The notes under the pieces were generated by a model, which saw only the letters and a program-made list of their open reading frames with translations, was not told the origin of the DNA and searched no databases. This document shows positions 52,967-62,576 of a stretch of 64,000 nucleotides of DNA, one piece after another. The position numbers and the translations under genes are program-made. Position 1 is the stretch's first letter. Each line of letters begins with the position of its first letter. The DNA comes from an uncultured Acidimicrobiaceae bacterium (GTDB lineage Bacteria; Actinomycetota; Acidimicrobiia; Acidimicrobiales; Ilumatobacteraceae), in the NCBI GenBank assembly GCA_937890395.1, contig CALACK010000063.1, forward strand, positions 1 to 64,000, written 5' to 3'.

Positions 52967-53899
52967 ATGCTTGTAATCCAACGCCCGACAGTCGAACCAA
53001 TCGGCTCGCCACAAAACAACCGTCAGAAATTTTCGGTTGGTCCACTAGAACCAGGTCTTGGTCACACGATCGGCAACTCATTGCGCCGAATGTTGTTGTC
53101 ATCGATTCCTGGTGCGGCAATTACTTCAGTAAAGTTCGAATCAGCTTTGCATGAATTCGACACAATTGAGGGTGTATCCGAAGACGTAACTGAGATCATT
53201 CTTAATCTCAAAGACATTGTTCTGGTGTCAACCTCAGACGATCCAATTGCGCTTCATGTAGATGTCAAAGGACCGATGGAGCTCACAGCCGGTGACATTC
53301 AGTGTCCACCAGATGTTGAGATTCTTAACAAGTCTCAGAAAATCGCCACTCTTTCAGCAAAGGGCAAGTTCGTGTTTGACCTTACGGTTGAGCGCGGCAA
53401 GGGCTACATGTCGTCAGATCGAGATGGCGCTCGCAAGACAATTGGGATCATTCCAATTGATGCGATTTTCTCACCAATTCGTCGCGTTACGTTTGAAGTT
53501 GAGCCGACTCGAGTAGAGCAGTCAACTAATTACGACAAACTTGTTATCGATATTGAGACTGACGGCTCGATCACGCCGGTTGATTCGCTTGCGTCGGCTG
53601 GTGCAACTCTGCGTTCGCTTGTTGATCTCGTGGCAAACTTGACTGCAGAGCCAGTAGGTCTTGAACTAGGCGAAGTTGTTGGTTACTCGAGTGGTACTGG
53701 CGATCTAGATATGCCAATTGAAGACCTCGATCTTTCAGAGCGACCACGCAACTGTTTGAAGCGCGGACAAGTTCACACAATTGGCGAGTTACTAACTCGG
53801 TCAGAAGAAGACTTGATGAACATCACCAACTTCGGGCAGAAGAGCCTTGATGAGATCAAACAAAAACTTGATGAGCAAGGACTCTCGTTGCGCCTCTGA
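52967..53899 (+). CDS. rpoA: DNA-directed RNA polymerase subunit alpha
   Basis: 310 aa. The N-terminal assembly domain has KFSVGPLEPGLGHTIGNSLRRMLLSSIPGAAI and LHEFDTIEGVSEDVTEIILNLK. The C-terminal domain (SERPRNCLKRGQVHTIGELLTRS, then ITNFGQKSLDEIKQKL) binds upstream DNA and activators. An AAGGAG-like ribosome site is 6-7 nt before the ATG. Confidence 0.98.
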   Translation: MLVIQRPTVEPIGSPQNNRQKFSVGPLEPGLGHTIGNSLRRMLLSSIPGAAITSVKFESALHEFDTIEGVSEDVTEIILNLKDIVLVSTSDDPIALHVDVKGPMELTAGDIQCPPDVEILNKSQKIATLSAKGKFVFDLTVERGKGYMSSDRDGARKTIGIIPIDAIFSPIRRVTFEVEPTRVEQSTNYDKLVIDIETDGSITPVDSLASAGATLRSLVDLVANLTAEPVGLELGEVVGYSSGTGDLDMPIEDLDLSERPRNCLKRGQVHTIGELLTRSEEDLMNITNFGQKSLDEIKQKLDEQGLSLRL

Positions 53900-53966: not shown

Positions 53967-54338
53967 ATGCCAGGAAGACCACGACGCGGACCAAGTTTTG
54001 GTGGAAGCTCGTCACACGAAAGATTGATGATGGCCAACTTGGCGTCGTCATTATTCGCTGCTGAAGGCATCGTAACGACTGAGACAAAAGCAAAAGCACT
54101 TCGTCCAATCGCCGAGAAACTAATTACAAAGGCAAAGAAAGCTCAGGGCACTAGCCCGATGCGAGTTCATCGCATTCGTCAGATTCAGAGTTACCTTCGC
54201 GACAAAGAAATGACAAACAAACTTGTCAATGTTGTTGCACCTCGATATACAGAGCGCAATGGTGGCTACCTTCGAATCTTGAAGCTTGGCCCACGCCACG
54301 GCGACAACGCACCAATGGCGCGCATCGAACTTATCTAG
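53967..54338 (+). CDS. rplQ: 50S ribosomal protein L17
   Basis: 123 aa. MPGRPRRGPSFGGSSSHERLMMANLA, IVTTETKAKALRPIAEKLITKAK, APRYTERNGGYLRILKLGPRHGDNAPMA all match L17. It lies at the tunnel exit. It has an AAGGAGAC ribosome site and sits 67 nt after rpoA. Confidence 0.97.
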   Translation: MPGRPRRGPSFGGSSSHERLMMANLASSLFAAEGIVTTETKAKALRPIAEKLITKAKKAQGTSPMRVHRIRQIQSYLRDKEMTNKLVNVVAPRYTERNGGYLRILKLGPRHGDNAPMARIELI

Positions 54339-55171: not shown

Positions 55172-55294
55172 AGCCCATATTTTTGTTGGGCCGATTGTTA
55201 TTTGGGTGGTTTCGGCCCTATCATTACTAGGCCGTTTAAACGAGTGCGAAGAGCCCTCAGGCGGTTGCTAATTCTAGATTTCAAGGAACTTTTT

Positions 55295-55741
55295 ATGCGT
55301 ACATATTCTGCAAAACCAGCTGACGTCAAGCGTGCTTGGCATTTGATTGATGCCGAAGGGCTTGTGCTCGGTCGACTTTGCACAGAGACTGCAACTTTGC
55401 TTCGCGGCAAACACAAACCGATGTACACACCAAGCATGGATACTGGCGATCACGTCGTAATTATCAATGCATCAAAAATTGTTCTTACTTCTGGAAAAGC
55501 CGATCGCGAAATGGTCTATGACTACTCTGGTTATCCAGGCGGTTTGAAATCAGAAACATACGCACATCTGTTAGATCGCAAACCTGGCGATGCAATCCGT
55601 CGATCAATCCGCGGAATGTTGCCAAAGGGAACTCTCGGTCGCGAGATGTTAAGCAAGTTACAGGTTTATCCAGGTGCAGAACATCCGCACGCAGCGCAAT
55701 CACCAAAAGTGCTTGAGCTTCCACACGCCAAGGCTCGCTGA
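55295..55741 (+). CDS. rplM: 50S ribosomal protein L13
   Basis: 148 aa from ATG 55295, supported by AAGGA at 55283-55287; an open frame back to 55202 lacks homology. KRAWHLIDAEGLVLGRLCTETATLLRGKHKPMYTP, the DTGDHVVIINASKIVLTSGKA segment and IRGMLPKGTLGREMLSKLQVYPGAEHPH are characteristic. L13 is an early 50S assembly protein. The 123-nt spacer after truA may hold a promoter. Confidence 0.97.
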   Translation: MRTYSAKPADVKRAWHLIDAEGLVLGRLCTETATLLRGKHKPMYTPSMDTGDHVVIINASKIVLTSGKADREMVYDYSGYPGGLKSETYAHLLDRKPGDAIRRSIRGMLPKGTLGREMLSKLQVYPGAEHPHAAQSPKVLELPHAKAR

Positions 55742-55779
55742 GTCGAGCACTAGAAAAATTAGAGAAAAGAGACAAACTC

Positions 55780-56175
55780 GTGGGAACAAAGCCACTTACT
55801 CAAACAACAGGGCGACGCAAGCATGCAATCTGTCGTGCTCGTTTGCGACCAGGAACAGGCATCGTAACGATTAACGATCGCGTGTTCGAAGAATATTTCC
55901 CATCTGAAGTACAACGCAACTCTTCAACCGAAGCATTGCGAGTAGCCAACATGATCGGCGCTTATGACATTGACGCTGACATTATTGGTGGCGGTATCGC
56001 TGGGCAATCTGGTGCATTGCGCATGGCAATCGCCCGAGCGATTGTTGAACTTGATCCTGAACAACGACTTGCGCTGAAGAAGGCCGGATTGTTGACACGC
56101 GACTCACGTCGTAAAGAGAGCAAGAAATACGGTCTCAAAAAGGCGCGCAAGGCGCCACAGTACACCAAGCGTTAA
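55780..56175 (+). CDS. rpsI: 30S ribosomal protein S9
   Basis: 131 aa from a GTG start. GRRKHAICRARLRPGTGIVTINDR, GGGIAGQSGALRMAIARAIVELDPE and the C-terminal RKESKKYGLKKARKAPQYTKR are standard; the last Lys-Arg contacts P-site tRNA. It pairs with rplM (38 nt). A 7-bp stem, AGCATGG/CCGTGCT at 56190-56209, follows the gene but lacks a T run. Confidence 0.97.
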   Translation: MGTKPLTQTTGRRKHAICRARLRPGTGIVTINDRVFEEYFPSEVQRNSSTEALRVANMIGAYDIDADIIGGGIAGQSGALRMAIARAIVELDPEQRLALKKAGLLTRDSRRKESKKYGLKKARKAPQYTKR

Positions 56176-56256: not shown

Positions 56257-57603
56257 ATGTTGAAATTTGGAACTGACGGAGTTCGCGGAGAATTCGGAAC
56301 TGAACTAACAACGAGTTATGTTGCCGCACTCGCTCGGGCAGCAGCAAAAGTTCTGCAATGCAAACTCGTGGTAATTGGTCGTGATACTCGCGAATCTGGC
56401 CCTGTGCTTGAAACAGCTATTGCTCAGTCGTTGAGTAATCTTGGTATTGAAGTTCATCTAATGGGTGTTGCGCCAACGCCGGCAATTGCATTTGCTGCGG
56501 TGTCAAGTGAAGCGGTGTCGTTTGCAATTACTGCTTCGCATAACACTTATACAGACAACGGTGTGAAGATTTTCGGTCGTGGTGGACGCAAACTCACAGA
56601 TGAGCAAGAATCGCGAATTGAACTTGAAACTGAACTTGAGCTTGCTAGCGAGATTAATCGTGCGCCAGATCATCAGCAATCTTCTGCAAGTTCAAAAATC
56701 TCCGCTGTCTCGCACCCAGAATATTTAGCACGATATTGCGCGGCGTTAGTCGCGAGCCTGCCCAAAAATGCTTTAGCCAAACTTCACATTGCTTTAGATT
56801 GCGCAAACGGCGCAATGAGCGAAGTTGCTTCAGCCGTTTTCACTGGGCTCGGTGCAAAGGTGTCAGTAATTCATAATTCGCCGAACGGTAAGAACATTAA
56901 TCACCACTGCGGCGCAACTGAGCCCTCCGAATTGAAAGAACTTGTCAAAAAAATTAAAGCCGATCTGGGTGTCGCATTCGACGGTGATGGTGATCGACTG
57001 ATTGCAATTGATGACTCTGGGACAATTGTGGATGGTGATCATTTAATCGCAATTAGCGCTCAAGACATGAAGCGCAACGGCACGTTGCGGAATAACAAAG
57101 TAGTCGTGACTGTGATGACGAATATAGGTTTTCATCGAGCAATGAAACAATCTGAAATTGAAGTGGTTACAACACCTGTTGGTGACAGGTCGGTGCTAAT
57201 TGCAATTCAAGAAAATGATCTCTCGCTTGGCGGAGAACAAAGCGGACACATTATTTACCACGACATCGCAACGACAGGTGATGGTTTGTTGGCGGCGATT
57301 CGTCTTTCTGCGCTGATTGCGAATTCTTCACAGGTATTCAGTGAGATTGCAAGTAACGCCATGACTAGTTTTCCGCAGGTGTTAAAAAATATTCGTGTTG
57401 CCAAACTCGCCGAAAATGTTGCTCAAATTTTTGCCACCGAGATAGCGGCTGCAGAAAAACTCTTGGGAGATAATGGTCGGGTGCTAGTGCGCTCAAGTGG
57501 CACAGAGCCTGTTGTGCGTGTGATGGTCGAAGCGCGAGAATATGACATCGCCGTATCTGTCGCAACCACGCTTGTTACAGCAATTACTGCCCGACTGGGT
57601 TAG
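56257..57603 (+). CDS. glmM: Phosphoglucosamine mutase
   Basis: 448 aa. It starts KFGTDGVRGEFGTELT, carries the phosphoserine loop AITASHNTYTDNGVKIF with Ser94, the metal loop FDGDGDRL (Asp242, Asp244, Asp246), LGGEQSGHIIY (sugar-binding) and VRSSGTEPVVRVMVEA (phosphate-binding). It converts glucosamine 6-phosphate to glucosamine 1-phosphate for UDP-GlcNAc and peptidoglycan. It stands 22 nt before the glmS gene that makes its substrate, a natural functional pair. Confidence 0.97.
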   Translation: MLKFGTDGVRGEFGTELTTSYVAALARAAAKVLQCKLVVIGRDTRESGPVLETAIAQSLSNLGIEVHLMGVAPTPAIAFAAVSSEAVSFAITASHNTYTDNGVKIFGRGGRKLTDEQESRIELETELELASEINRAPDHQQSSASSKISAVSHPEYLARYCAALVASLPKNALAKLHIALDCANGAMSEVASAVFTGLGAKVSVIHNSPNGKNINHHCGATEPSELKELVKKIKADLGVAFDGDGDRLIAIDDSGTIVDGDHLIAISAQDMKRNGTLRNNKVVVTVMTNIGFHRAMKQSEIEVVTTPVGDRSVLIAIQENDLSLGGEQSGHIIYHDIATTGDGLLAAIRLSALIANSSQVFSEIASNAMTSFPQVLKNIRVAKLAENVAQIFATEIAAAEKLLGDNGRVLVRSSGTEPVVRVMVEAREYDIAVSVATTLVTAITARLG

Positions 57604-57625: not shown

Positions 57626-60600
57626 ATGTGCGGAATTATCTGCGTGCTCAGTCGTCCGACGCGACGGGCAACGCCCACCTCGAAAGAGATTATTGAACTT
57701 TTAGACCGAGCAATCAGTCAAGGCGCTGAAAGCAAAATTGACGGCTTGTCAAAACTCGTCGCTCAAGCTGATGAATTATTGCGGGGCGACGCCGGCCAGT
57801 TTTGTTTGGCGGATAATCATCAGTTAGTCGCAGCGATGACTTCGCGACTTGATCAACTAGACGCGGTTGTCACGGGCTATGAACAAGCGATCGAACACTC
57901 TGCCGAGGTTCAAACAGCGACGTCAGAACTTGCATTGCAACAGATCATTAGCGCGAAAGACGCGCTATGGGAGCTGCGTAATGATCGAATTCGAACAGCG
58001 CGTCTAGTAGATGCACTCGCTGGGCAAGGTGCGTCAAATGCAGCACGAAGTGGATATTTTTCGATTCAACAAGCGTTCTCTGGCATAGATCGGCTCGAGG
58101 TTCGCGGTCGAGATTCGGCGGGCGTACATGTTCTGGTTTGGGGACATGGATTGAAAGCCGATGACAAAAACATTAAGTCTTTAATCGCCAACCGAAGTGA
58201 TGACTCATTATTTATGTCGGGCGCAGTTCGGGTAACTGATAATGCATGGTCATTTGTTTATAAAGCCGCAGCAGAGATTGGCGAACTTGGTGATAACACC
58301 AGGGTGATGCGCAACGCAGTAATGGCAGATGACTTGTTGCGTTTATGTATTTCACAACCAAATTCACAAGTCGCGGTACTAGCGCACACGCGTTGGGCAA
58401 GTGTCGGCATCATTTCGGAACCAAACGCTCACCCTGTAAACAGTGAAGAACTTGAGCGCAAACATAGCGACGCATATTTGGTTGCTGCATTAAATGGAGA
58501 TGTTGATAATCACGCCGATCTTCGAGCCGTAAATAGTCTGCGCATCGCGGGGCCAATTACAACAGACGCAAAAGTTATCCCAGCATTGGTTGCACGACGT
58601 TTGGCAACAAATGCTTCTTTGAGCGACGCATTTCGAGAAACTGTTGCAAAGTTTGATGGGTCAGTTGCAATCGCAGTCGCAAGTGCCGCTGAACCTGACA
58701 AACTTCTACTTGCATTGCACGGCAGCGGTCAAGGACTCAGCATTGGACTTGCTGAAGACCGTTTCATTGTTGCCAGCGAACCATATGGCGTTGTCGAAGA
58801 GACGCTCAAATATGTGCGCATGGACGGCGAAGCACTGGGCGACCCTGATAATCCGTCAAGTCGTGGACAAGTCGCAACATTGTCTATTGCTAATGCTGGA
58901 GAACTGAGTGGAATCATTCTGCAGTCTTATGACGGCAGCAAAATTGCGCTCAGCGAAAGTGATATCCATACAGCCGAAATCACAACTCGTGATATAAATC
59001 GTGGCGAACACAAACACTTTTTATCAAAGGAAATTGCCGAAGCACCGCAGAGTTTTCGAAAAACTTTGCGTGGCAGAATCGTTGAAAAAAACGGATTGTT
59101 GGTTGCCGAACTTGGCGAAGCAGTACTTCCCAAATTTGTGCGCGATCGTCTCGCATCTGGTGCGATCACAAAAGTTCGTGTAATAGGTCAAGGCACTGCG
59201 GCTATTGCTGGTCAAGCGTTGGCCCGACTTCTTAAACAACTTGTCGACATTCACTTAAACATCGAGGCATTACCAGCCAGTGAACTTTCTGGTTTTGAAT
59301 TAACTCTCGACATGAGTGACACATTGGTAGTTGCGATTAGTCAAAGTGGTACGACTACCGACACGAATCGCACAGTAGATCTTGCTCGCGCCCGTGGCGC
59401 AAGTGTTTTGGCAATTGTCAATCGTCGTGGCACTGAACTTTCAGTTAAAGCTGATGGCGTTATGTATACATCTGATGGTCGCGATGTTGAGATGAGCGTT
59501 GCCAGCACCAAAGCTTTTTATTCGCAAGTTGCAGCAGGCGCTTTGTACGCGTGTGCGTTATCGAGTGCCGCGGGCAAGTCAAGCGACAAGGCTCGACACG
59601 AGTTGCTTACTGGTTTACGCACGATTCCAGATGCGTTAGTTGAAGTTCTTGAAACACGTCCGGCAATTGCGGCCGCTGCCAAGCAGTTTGCGTCTGCGCG
59701 TCGTTACTGGACAGTCGTAGGTAATGGGATGAATACGATTGCAGCGCAAGAGATTCGCATCAAATTATCTGAGCTCTGTTATAAATCTATTTCAAGCGAT
59801 ACGACTGAAGATAAAAAGCACATTGATCTTTCGTGTGAACCGTTAATTTTTGTCTGCGCGACTGGGCTACTTGAAGGCACGGCATCAGATGTTGCCAAAG
59901 AGATCGCGATTTACCGTGCTCACAAAGCGCTGCCGATTGTTGTTGCTACTGCTGGTCAAAATCGATTTGATGCAGCGGCAGCAGTTTTGCTCGTGCCCAA
60001 TGTCGAAACAAGCCTGTCATTTATTTTGAGTGTGATGGTAGGACACTTATTTGGCTATGAAGCAGCTTTGGCGATTGACGCACTTGCCCGCCCGTTACGT
60101 GAAGCCCGTGAGGTCATAGAGCATGCTGTCGAAAGAGGCGGCGATGCAAATGAATTGCTTTCCAAGATTCGGGCGTTGTTGCCTGTACCGGCAACTCGGT
60201 TTACTGATGCGCTTTCAACTGGTAGCTACGACGGCAATCTTGAAGCCAGCACTGCAGTGCGAATCGTGACAATGTTGCGCGACACTCTCTCGAGTGATCC
60301 GGTTCAGGCGTATCAGCAAACATCTGGCAAGATTGCCTCGCCAGAATTATTGTTAGACGATCTAACAAGTGCTCTAACTCGTGGTGTTGACGAATTAACT
60401 CGTCCGGTAGACGCTATTAAACATCAAGCCAAAACTGTGACTGTTGGCATTTCGCGTAGTGACGAAGGTTTGTTTGACCGACCATTGGTTAAAGCCCTGT
60501 TTGAGGCTGGCGTCGCCCGCGAACGACTTTCGTATCGTGTATTAAAAATCGTCGCCGATCTTGACGCAGCGGTGAGTTCAGTGACCGGTTTTACTCGGTA

Positions 60601-61033
60601 CGGCATAGAAGGCGACGTAACGGGCACGACGGGCACGATCACAATTGTTGATCGCGGCGGAATGTCAAAAAATCTTTCTTCTCGCGTTGACCGCAATTCG
60701 CAACTAGTCGGCACCAAGCGTCGAGTTGCGAGTGAACAAGAAGTTCTCGTTGCTCGTGGTCGCAGTGATAATCGCACCGTGATAATGGTTCCTGAAACAA
60801 AAGGTGGAGAAACAACTGGCATCACTTTGCTGCATGTGATGTTTCACGATCGACTCGCCGCCACGGCGATGCGTGCCGTGCTACAAGGGTATGACCATCG
60901 ATATGACCGGCTTGTTGACTGGGTAACAGAAACCGAAGGCTCATTTAGAGAAGATCGCTTAGCTGAAGTGCCAGTGGCTGATTTGTTAATTTTACCAATC
61001 AGCGAGATGGCTGACCACTGGCGTTCGCAGTAG
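57626..61033 (+). CDS. glmS: Oversized glutamine-fructose-6-phosphate aminotransferase (GlmS-like, 1135 aa)
   Basis: The usual GlmS is about 610 aa. Here the nucleophile Cys2 (MCGIICVLS) is separated from RGRDSAG (160-166) by about 134 extra residues. Glutaminase residues HTRWAS (Arg256) and NGD (290-292) follow with another insertion. SIS domains start near residues 516 and 694; KLSELCY and DKKHIDL seem to keep the isomerase Glu and His. AKTVTVG (Lys936) resembles the normal C-terminal AKSVTVE, but about 195 more residues follow with no family I know. All catalytic parts appear present, so it probably makes glucosamine 6-phosphate for glmM, 22 nt upstream. Confidence 0.85.
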   Translation: MCGIICVLSRPTRRATPTSKEIIELLDRAISQGAESKIDGLSKLVAQADELLRGDAGQFCLADNHQLVAAMTSRLDQLDAVVTGYEQAIEHSAEVQTATSELALQQIISAKDALWELRNDRIRTARLVDALAGQGASNAARSGYFSIQQAFSGIDRLEVRGRDSAGVHVLVWGHGLKADDKNIKSLIANRSDDSLFMSGAVRVTDNAWSFVYKAAAEIGELGDNTRVMRNAVMADDLLRLCISQPNSQVAVLAHTRWASVGIISEPNAHPVNSEELERKHSDAYLVAALNGDVDNHADLRAVNSLRIAGPITTDAKVIPALVARRLATNASLSDAFRETVAKFDGSVAIAVASAAEPDKLLLALHGSGQGLSIGLAEDRFIVASEPYGVVEETLKYVRMDGEALGDPDNPSSRGQVATLSIANAGELSGIILQSYDGSKIALSESDIHTAEITTRDINRGEHKHFLSKEIAEAPQSFRKTLRGRIVEKNGLLVAELGEAVLPKFVRDRLASGAITKVRVIGQGTAAIAGQALARLLKQLVDIHLNIEALPASELSGFELTLDMSDTLVVAISQSGTTTDTNRTVDLARARGASVLAIVNRRGTELSVKADGVMYTSDGRDVEMSVASTKAFYSQVAAGALYACALSSAAGKSSDKARHELLTGLRTIPDALVEVLETRPAIAAAAKQFASARRYWTVVGNGMNTIAAQEIRIKLSELCYKSISSDTTEDKKHIDLSCEPLIFVCATGLLEGTASDVAKEIAIYRAHKALPIVVATAGQNRFDAAAAVLLVPNVETSLSFILSVMVGHLFGYEAALAIDALARPLREAREVIEHAVERGGDANELLSKIRALLPVPATRFTDALSTGSYDGNLEASTAVRIVTMLRDTLSSDPVQAYQQTSGKIASPELLLDDLTSALTRGVDELTRPVDAIKHQAKTVTVGISRSDEGLFDRPLVKALFEAGVARERLSYRVLKIVADLDAAVSSVTGFTRYGIEGDVTGTTGTITIVDRGGMSKNLSSRVDRNSQLVGTKRRVASEQEVLVARGRSDNRTVIMVPETKGGETTGITLLHVMFHDRLAATAMRAVLQGYDHRYDRLVDWVTETEGSFREDRLAEVPVADLLILPISEMADHWRSQ

Positions 61034-61046
61034 AAAGTCAAAGCAG

Positions 61047-61412
61047 ATGATTGGCCTGGGCATTGACGCAGTAAGCGTGCCGCGATTTCGTGACGCACTT
61101 GAGCGCACTCCAACATTAAAGACGCGAGTTTTTACCGCTCAAGAACTTAACTCTCTTGCAACTCGAAAAGATTTGGCACCAGGTTTGGCAGCACGATTTG
61201 CGGTTCGCGAAGCAACAATGAAAGCACTTGGCGTAGGACTTGGCGCTTTTGATTTGCAAGATGTTTCAATTCGTAGCCACGCTTCTGGTGCTCCCGAATT
61301 AATCGTCACAGGTCGAGCGGCAGAAATTGCCAGCCAACAAGGTGTTTCTTCTTGGCATGTTTCGCTATCGCACACTCACGACATGGCGGTGGCTGTTGTC
61401 GCTAGTCACTGA
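61047..61412 (+). CDS. acpS: Holo-acyl-carrier-protein synthase
   Basis: 121 aa. The metal-binding MIGLGIDAVSVPRF (Asp7) and ARFAVREATMKALG (Glu) motifs, and WHVSLSHTHDMAVAVV at the C-terminus, identify the AcpS-type phosphopantetheinyl transferase. It moves the 4'-phosphopantetheine of CoA to acyl carrier protein for fatty-acid synthesis. RFAVREA differs from the common RFAAKEA by Arg for Lys. It lies 13 nt after glmS and 18 nt before alr. Confidence 0.95.
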   Translation: MIGLGIDAVSVPRFRDALERTPTLKTRVFTAQELNSLATRKDLAPGLAARFAVREATMKALGVGLGAFDLQDVSIRSHASGAPELIVTGRAAEIASQQGVSSWHVSLSHTHDMAVAVVASH

Positions 61413-61430: not shown

Positions 61431-62576
61431 GTGAGCGCAACTGATCGTTGGGCTTGGGCTGAGGTTGATCTATTAGCTCTGAGCGAGAATGTTAAAGCTC
61501 TCGTAAAACAAGCAGGTCGCGCAGAACTTTGGGCAACAGTTAAAGCAAATGGATACGGACACGGCGCTGTTGAAGTTGCGCGAACAGCATTGGCGTCTGG
61601 TGCTAGCGGGCTCTGCGTTGCGCTTGCCGACGAAGCTCATGAGTTACGCCAAGCAAAAATTACTGCACCGATACTTATTGTTAGTGAGCAACCAGAAACC
61701 CAACACGAGCAAATGTTGCGTGATGATGTCGCTGCAACTCTTTATAACGAAGCGAGTATTTCAAGTTATGCCGCCGAGGCTGCGCGACTTGGTGTTATTG
61801 GTCGGGTTCATCTGAAAGTTGATACTGGTATGCATCGTGTTGGTGCACCAATCGAAGATGCACTGGTTCGAGCAAAACAAATTAATAGCTTGAAGTCACT
61901 AACCCTTGAAGGTGTTTACACGCATTTCGCTGCCGCTGATTTGCCAGAACATTCTGCGACAGATTTGCAAAGGCAAAAATTTGTCGAAGTCATTAAGTTG
62001 TTAGAACAAAACTCATTGCGACCAAAATATACTCATACGGCTAATTCATCTGCAGCAATTCGTGAGATAGATACTGCTTTAGTCACGGGTCTCGGTATAG
62101 CGCGAGTCGGTATTGCGATCTATGGCATTGCGCCGAGTATCGAACTCGAATCGCACGTCGCGAAACTCAAACCGGTGATGTCGATTCATGCGCGTGTCTC
62201 TCACGTGCAGCGTCTCAAAGCCGGCGAGGGTATCTCATATGGTTTGCGCAGCAAACTTGAATGCGATGCAACTATTGCGACTCTCCCAATTGGCTATGCC
62301 GATGGCATACCTCGTCGACTGTGGTCGGTTGGTGGCGAAGTATTAATTGGTGGAAAGCGTTGCCCGATTATCGGTGTCGTAACGATGGATCAACTGATGG
62401 TTAATTGCGCAGACGCACAAATAAAAATCGGCGACCACGCAGTTTTGCTCGGTACACAAGGCACTGAAACAATTACTGCCAATGAAATCGCAACACGGCT
62501 TGAGACGATTGGCTACGAAATTGTCTGCGGTATAAGTTCTCGAGTTCCGCGACGCTATATCGACGCGAAAAAATAA
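61431..62576 (+). CDS. alr: Alanine racemase
   Basis: 381 aa fold-III PLP enzyme from a GTG start. WATVKANGYGHGAVEVART carries the PLP lysine Lys38, HLKVDTGMHRVG and LTLEGVYTHFAAAD form the barrel, and GISYGLRSKLE holds the second base Tyr270, with VTMDQLMVNC near the end. It interconverts L- and D-alanine for peptidoglycan. The acpS-alr-tsaE-tsaB-rimI order is frequent in actinobacteria. Confidence 0.96.
   Translation: MSATDRWAWAEVDLLALSENVKALVKQAGRAELWATVKANGYGHGAVEVARTALASGASGLCVALADEAHELRQAKITAPILIVSEQPETQHEQMLRDDVAATLYNEASISSYAAEAARLGVIGRVHLKVDTGMHRVGAPIEDALVRAKQINSLKSLTLEGVYTHFAAADLPEHSATDLQRQKFVEVIKLLEQNSLRPKYTHTANSSAAIREIDTALVTGLGIARVGIAIYGIAPSIELESHVAKLKPVMSIHARVSHVQRLKAGEGISYGLRSKLECDATIATLPIGYADGIPRRLWSVGGEVLIGGKRCPIIGVVTMDQLMVNCADAQIKIGDHAVLLGTQGTETITANEIATRLETIGYEIVCGISSRVPRRYIDAKK

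Follow-up and report, generated by a model that had tools for sequence, protein, structure and literature searches.

The first amino sugar needed for the cell wall comes from GlmS, a gateway enzyme that is almost universal and also a target for antibiotics. In the stretch of DNA analysed here (64,000 nucleotides, hereafter the window), the open reading frame found in the position of glmS begins with ATG-TGC (M-Cys2) and encodes 1135 amino acids against 609 (with Met) in Escherichia coli GlmS, i.e. almost twice the usual size, as a sequence-only reading had stated. The locus raises the question of whether such a protein is still a GlmS, whether its organism holds another one and what the additional parts may do. 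We consider it likely (probability of roughly 0.7) that this is the only GlmS of the organism and that it belongs to a distinct long subfamily, in which a sensor-like C-terminal domain and helical inserts may act as an allosteric and quaternary-structure module.

Alignment with E. coli GlmS (E. coli numbering) accounted for the total excess of 526 residues. The stretch from C1 to R26 comprises 158 residues instead of 25 (+133), and further additions lie between R26 and H71, ahead of HTRW (+49), between H71 and D123 (+8), in the linker region between D123 and C300 (+31), between C300 and H504 (+6) and between H504 and K603, ahead of the catalytic Lys (+105); finally, 199 residues instead of 5 separate K603 from the end (+194). 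The additions announced beforehand, i.e. about 134 residues between Cys2 and RGRDSAG, inserts ahead of HTRW and between the second SIS domain and AKTVTVG, and about 195 residues past the normal end of GlmS, agree with these measurements. The extra region had also been placed on the active-site side, and the C-terminal addition is indeed joined straight to the active-site C-tail because the catalytic Lys is kept. All features are listed in Table 1.

Table 1. Long glmS gene, its segments and its neighbours (positions in the window; residue numbers of the long protein unless stated otherwise)
Feature	Position	Strand	Basis
rplM and rpsI, upstream anchors of the conserved slot	55289..56175	+	locus comparison, NCBIfam
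glmM (phosphoglucosamine mutase), immediately upstream of the long glmS	56257..57603	+	TIGR01455 over its cut-off
Long-form GlmS, 1135 aa	57626..61033	+	ORF, profile matches, alignment, structural comparison
First strand of the Ntn glutaminase domain with nucleophile Cys2 (E. coli Cys1)	57626..57658	+	alignment; modelled strand 4-9
N-terminal helical insert, residues 12-156, ~133 extra residues	57659..58093	+	model, conservation
RGRDSAG motif of the glutaminase domain, R160 = E. coli Arg26	58094..58141	+	alignment
Second glutaminase insert, residues about 173-223	58142..58294	+	alignment
Glutaminase core: HTRW (254-257), NAHP (H269), NG (290-291), D314	58295..58825	+	Pfam, alignment, fold
Interdomain linker region, within the D314-Q522 stretch, ~31 residues longer than that of E. 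coli	58826..58996	+	alignment
Isomerase domain, two SIS folds: SQSGTTTDT (572-580), K713, E716, H732	58997..60085	+	Pfam, alignment, fold
Helical insert of ~105 residues, from second SIS fold to catalytic C-tail	60086..60409	+	alignment, model
Near-invariant catalytic C-tail DAIKHQAKTVTVGISR, K936 = E. coli Lys603	60410..60457	+	alignment, conservation
C-terminal extra domain, residues 945-1135, PAS/GAF-like predicted fold	60458..61030	+	model, fold search, conservation
acpS (holo-ACP synthase), immediately downstream of the long glmS	61047..61412	+	NCBIfam
alr (alanine racemase), downstream, peptidoglycan precursor gene	61431..62576	+	TIGR00492

Full-length relatives, from 98 % down to 44 % identity, were retrieved from many independent assemblies, the 48 that were aligned hardly vary in AKTVTVG, and in every one of them K936 is followed by about 190 residues. 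A frameshift, fusion, read-through or assembly artefact was ruled out on the basis of this common architecture. Conservation over the 48 long forms is uneven: near-invariant columns amount to 13 of 16 in the C-tail (DAIKHQAKTVTVGISR), to 19 of 191 in the C-terminal domain (including the polar residues T990, R991, Y992, K1031, D1048, R1050 and E1057), to 4 of 145 in the N-terminal insert (residues 12-156, six predicted helices) and to 4 of 108 in the insert at 821-928, which is also predicted to be helical.

Family membership was assessed by comparing 15 diverse long forms with 13 standard actinobacterial GlmS and that of E. coli. The N-terminal Cys nucleophile of an Ntn glutaminase (C1) was present in the 15 long forms, as were the glutaminase residues R26, H71, R73, W74, H86, N98, G99 and D123 and the isomerase residues S347, Q348, S349, T352, D354, K485, E488, K503, H504 and K603 (E. 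coli numbering), so that the double-SIS part retains its SQSxxT phosphate loop together with K485, E488, H504 and K603. Lys558, Glu561, His577 and Lys676 of human GFAT-1, which are conserved from E. coli to humans (PMC7000685), correspond to K713, E716, H732 and K936 of the long protein. Other positions that are (nearly) constant in standard GlmS are replaced, namely Y25V, T124A, C300Q, E351T and G505I in all 15 long forms and H97L and E125K in 14 of them; S303 is Ala in the 15 long forms and also in 5 of the 13 standard actinobacterial enzymes.

Pfam recognised one SIS domain and a GATase_6 domain. A whole-protein AlphaFold2 model, built from a 29-sequence alignment (mean pLDDT 82, pTM 0.71), superposed on E. 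coli GlmS 2j6h (568 residues, Z 33.6) and on 1xff, a structure of the glutaminase domain alone (Z 29.3). The NCBIfam model TIGR01135 gave 238 bits, below its curated cut-off of 418, and the ending typical of that model, a few residues past the catalytic Lys, is absent here. Since the score lies under the cut-off, we claim membership as a divergent long subfamily of GlmS and not as a TIGR01135 equivalog. With this restriction, the predicted fold, the catalytic residues, the neighbouring genes and the lack of a standard copy support the identity of the long form as a GlmS.

As regards the last point, a TIGR01135 search of the rest of the window's genome (2.17 Mb, 91 % complete) revealed no standard glmS, although one might still lie in the missing part of this single genome. 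The only further match to that model was a 289-aa GlxB-type class-II amidotransferase (C157:5503-5982), behind which a GltB C-terminal-like ORF lies in the same orientation. With both names read from the sequence, this pair is best taken as a separate amidotransferase system, not a GlmS. The best glmU match of the genome (C134:11084-12142), a 384-aa open frame covering positions 3-341 of 452 of TIGR01173 and scoring below its cut-off, is possibly a shortened or contig-cut GlmU.

The suggestion that related genomes be searched for a second, normal glmS was followed in a survey of 148 genomes of the class Acidimicrobiia. The long form occurred in 57 genomes (about 40 %), a standard-type match only, mostly in frames of about 600-690 aa, in 83, and both in none, additional matches in long-form genomes of the class being contig-split pieces of the same gene. 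In one genome of the class (G054, 95 % complete) no match to GlmS was obtained. The long form is present in each of the 12 genomes of the family to which the window belongs. The window's copy is most likely the only GlmS of its organism. Outside the class, within Actinomycetota, it was found in four further families of the phylum, and a standard copy was absent from the genomes checked apart from G187 (family f49), the single genome in which the two forms co-occurred. As G187 measures 6.5 Mb, shows 5 % contamination and carries its long copy away from glmM, its two GlmS may reflect contamination or recent transfer.

The gene order of the window is rplQ-truA-rplM-rpsI-glmM-GlmS-acpS-alr-tsaE-tsaB (NCBIfam identities), GlmM catalysing the next step of the GlmS pathway. 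Long and standard GlmS share one slot, usually between glmM and acpS/alr, at nearly all loci where the contig reaches; departures were seen mainly in family f72 and in G187, whose long forms do not adjoin glmM. No glmS ribozyme or other RNA element was matched by Rfam between positions 53000 and 64000. The ribosomal protein L17 encoded at 53967-54338 scores above the standard L17 cut-off, yet higher with a 'sunset domain variant' model, of which it covers just the first half.

The cores of the 15 long GlmS formed one clade (support 100/100), separated by very long branches from the 13 standard actinobacterial sequences and E. coli. Mean identities were 64 % among long forms, 49 % among standard forms, 30 % between the two and 44 % between standard forms and E. 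coli GlmS. A tree of 75 loci, built on the flanking genes truA, rplM, rpsI, glmM and alr by a quick search with SH-aLRT supports only, needs 7 changes between long and standard forms, at least 4 of them forced by well-supported branches. The simplest reading is exchange in place, by recombination between the flanking conserved genes; the alternative is repeated loss from an ancestor that held both forms. In the long-form tree, the copies of f72 and G187 branch within Acidimicrobiia (support below 95 %), a position that suggests transfer. The long GlmS is thus no single oddity: it represents a clade-wide subfamily swapping with standard GlmS in the same slot.

The extra segments matched nothing above noise among Pfam, NCBIfam and PDB sequences; this holds for the N-terminal insert (residues 12-156) in Pfam and PDB, and the C-terminal domain matched neither PAS nor GAF in Pfam. 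Region 822-1134 was modelled separately (pLDDT 88.6), and Foldseek returned nothing under E 0.001 with it; the best match (E 4e-3) was the 180-kDa glutamate dehydrogenase of Mycobacterium smegmatis, whose PAS-containing segment 174-358 (7JSR) gave a VIA Z of 8.7 over 161 residues. GAF, PAS and Cache sensor domains followed with Z of 6-7, all these matches being modest, i.e. near values that unrelated models reach. The match to 7JSR also calls for caution, its N-terminal part having been modelled ab initio into low-resolution (~6 A) density. Profile-level homology to the N-terminus of large glutamate dehydrogenases was not detected, hhalign with 16 such enzymes from Acidimicrobiia giving a probability under 1 %. 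A search of a viral fold library found no match below E 0.001. Given modest fold matches and no profile similarity, we call the C-terminal domain PAS/GAF-like in predicted fold and not a member of either family. The structure prediction and HMM search proposed for the extra regions yielded a helical N-terminal insert, a PAS/GAF-like C-terminal fold and no known Pfam or NCBIfam family.

In the mechanism that we propose, the long GlmS would hydrolyse glutamine at Cys2, channel the ammonia past W257 and the C-tail, and convert fructose-6-phosphate to glucosamine-6-phosphate using K713, E716, H732 and K936. With lower confidence, the PAS/GAF-like domain and the helical inserts of the glutaminase and isomerase parts may form an allosteric and quaternary-structure module, in which metabolite binding would shift the C-tail, or change the orientation of glutaminase and isomerase, and so set the flux into UDP-GlcNAc. 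The C-tail and Trp74 seal the ammonia channel in GlmS (PMC7948480), and a domain fused behind the C-tail would be well placed to control its ordering and hence the coupling of glutamine hydrolysis to amino transfer. By analogy, the design would resemble the N-terminal ACT/PAS segment of 180-kDa glutamate dehydrogenases. An unassigned domain that resembles sensor-type folds fits the earlier suggestion that the extra region may regulate the enzyme. A regulatory role of the additions is plausible, and partner binding, the other role suggested, is a candidate too.

That the extra parts are structural only, building up a larger oligomer or joining the enzyme to GlmM or other products of the operon and sensing no metabolite, is an explanation that we hold to be less likely, despite the weakly conserved, all-helical predictions for the N-terminal and 821-928 inserts, which are typical of packing elements, and the location of the gene beside glmM and acpS; the scattered near-invariant polar residues and the predicted sensor-like fold of the C-terminal domain exceed the needs of packing. 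It appears quite improbable that the long form makes another amino sugar or runs a deaminase-like reaction, glucosamine-6-phosphate coming from elsewhere. The fixed C300Q, S303A, E351T and G505I around the sugar pocket, the identity of about 30 % to standard GlmS and the long stem branch would suit such a change of reaction, but the residues for glutamine hydrolysis, Schiff base formation and isomerisation are all kept, the slot adjoining glmM is the same, long-form genomes lack a standard GlmS though glmM, glmU-like and alr genes are present, and S303A also occurs in standard enzymes.

Feedback by UDP-GlcNAc through a eukaryotic-type isomerase pocket, with the extra domains incidental, has a precedent in eukaryotic GFAT, for which allosteric feedback control by UDP-GlcNAc is known (PMC7000685), but we give it very little credit: the pocket residues T447, T458, G461 and H463 of human GFAT-1 are replaced by V, A, V and Y in the long form. 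As this pocket is not conserved, any feedback would use another site.

GlmR/YvcK is a regulator of GlmS. A true GlmR/YvcK (TIGR01826 over cut-off) was absent from the surveyed members of the window's family (f1) and from family f3, and found in most other long-form genomes; the long form is therefore not simply its substitute, and the idea of a general replacement was rejected.

Compared with known systems, the long form shares with standard GlmS (TIGR01135; E. coli b3729, PDB 2j6h/1jxa) the glutaminase and double-SIS architecture, the catalytic residues, the glmM partner and the predicted fold, and differs in its length, in a core identity of about 27 % to the E. coli enzyme, in altered QGTA and KHID motifs and in the domain after the C-tail. 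Eukaryotic GFAT-1 (PDB 6r4e and others) has the common two-domain fold and also carries additional segments that the E. coli enzyme lacks; in human GFAT the insertion forms a loop (46 residues long in hGFAT2, PMC7948480), whereas the long GlmS has predicted helical bundles and a C-terminal domain. The 180-kDa NAD-glutamate dehydrogenase (PF05088 family) is likewise an enzyme of nitrogen metabolism much enlarged by sensor-type domains (PMC8175468), but its catalytic domain is another one and its sensor-like domain is N-terminal. The literature search found no paper on a long GlmS, which constitutes a distinct, conserved and apparently undescribed subfamily replacing the standard enzyme in place.

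As the long GlmS stays under the cut-off of the curated model, a sizeable fraction of Acidimicrobiia genomes may seem, after automated annotation, to lack an essential gene. Because long and short forms are naturally exchanged at one locus, paired genomes are available in which to test directly whether the extra domains regulate amino-sugar synthesis. Tentatively, and at somewhat under even odds, we propose that an allosteric sensor domain lies behind the catalytic lysine in a subfamily repeatedly exchanged in situ; if true, entry into cell-wall amino-sugar synthesis would be controlled within GlmS itself, and not by riboswitches, sRNAs or partner proteins.
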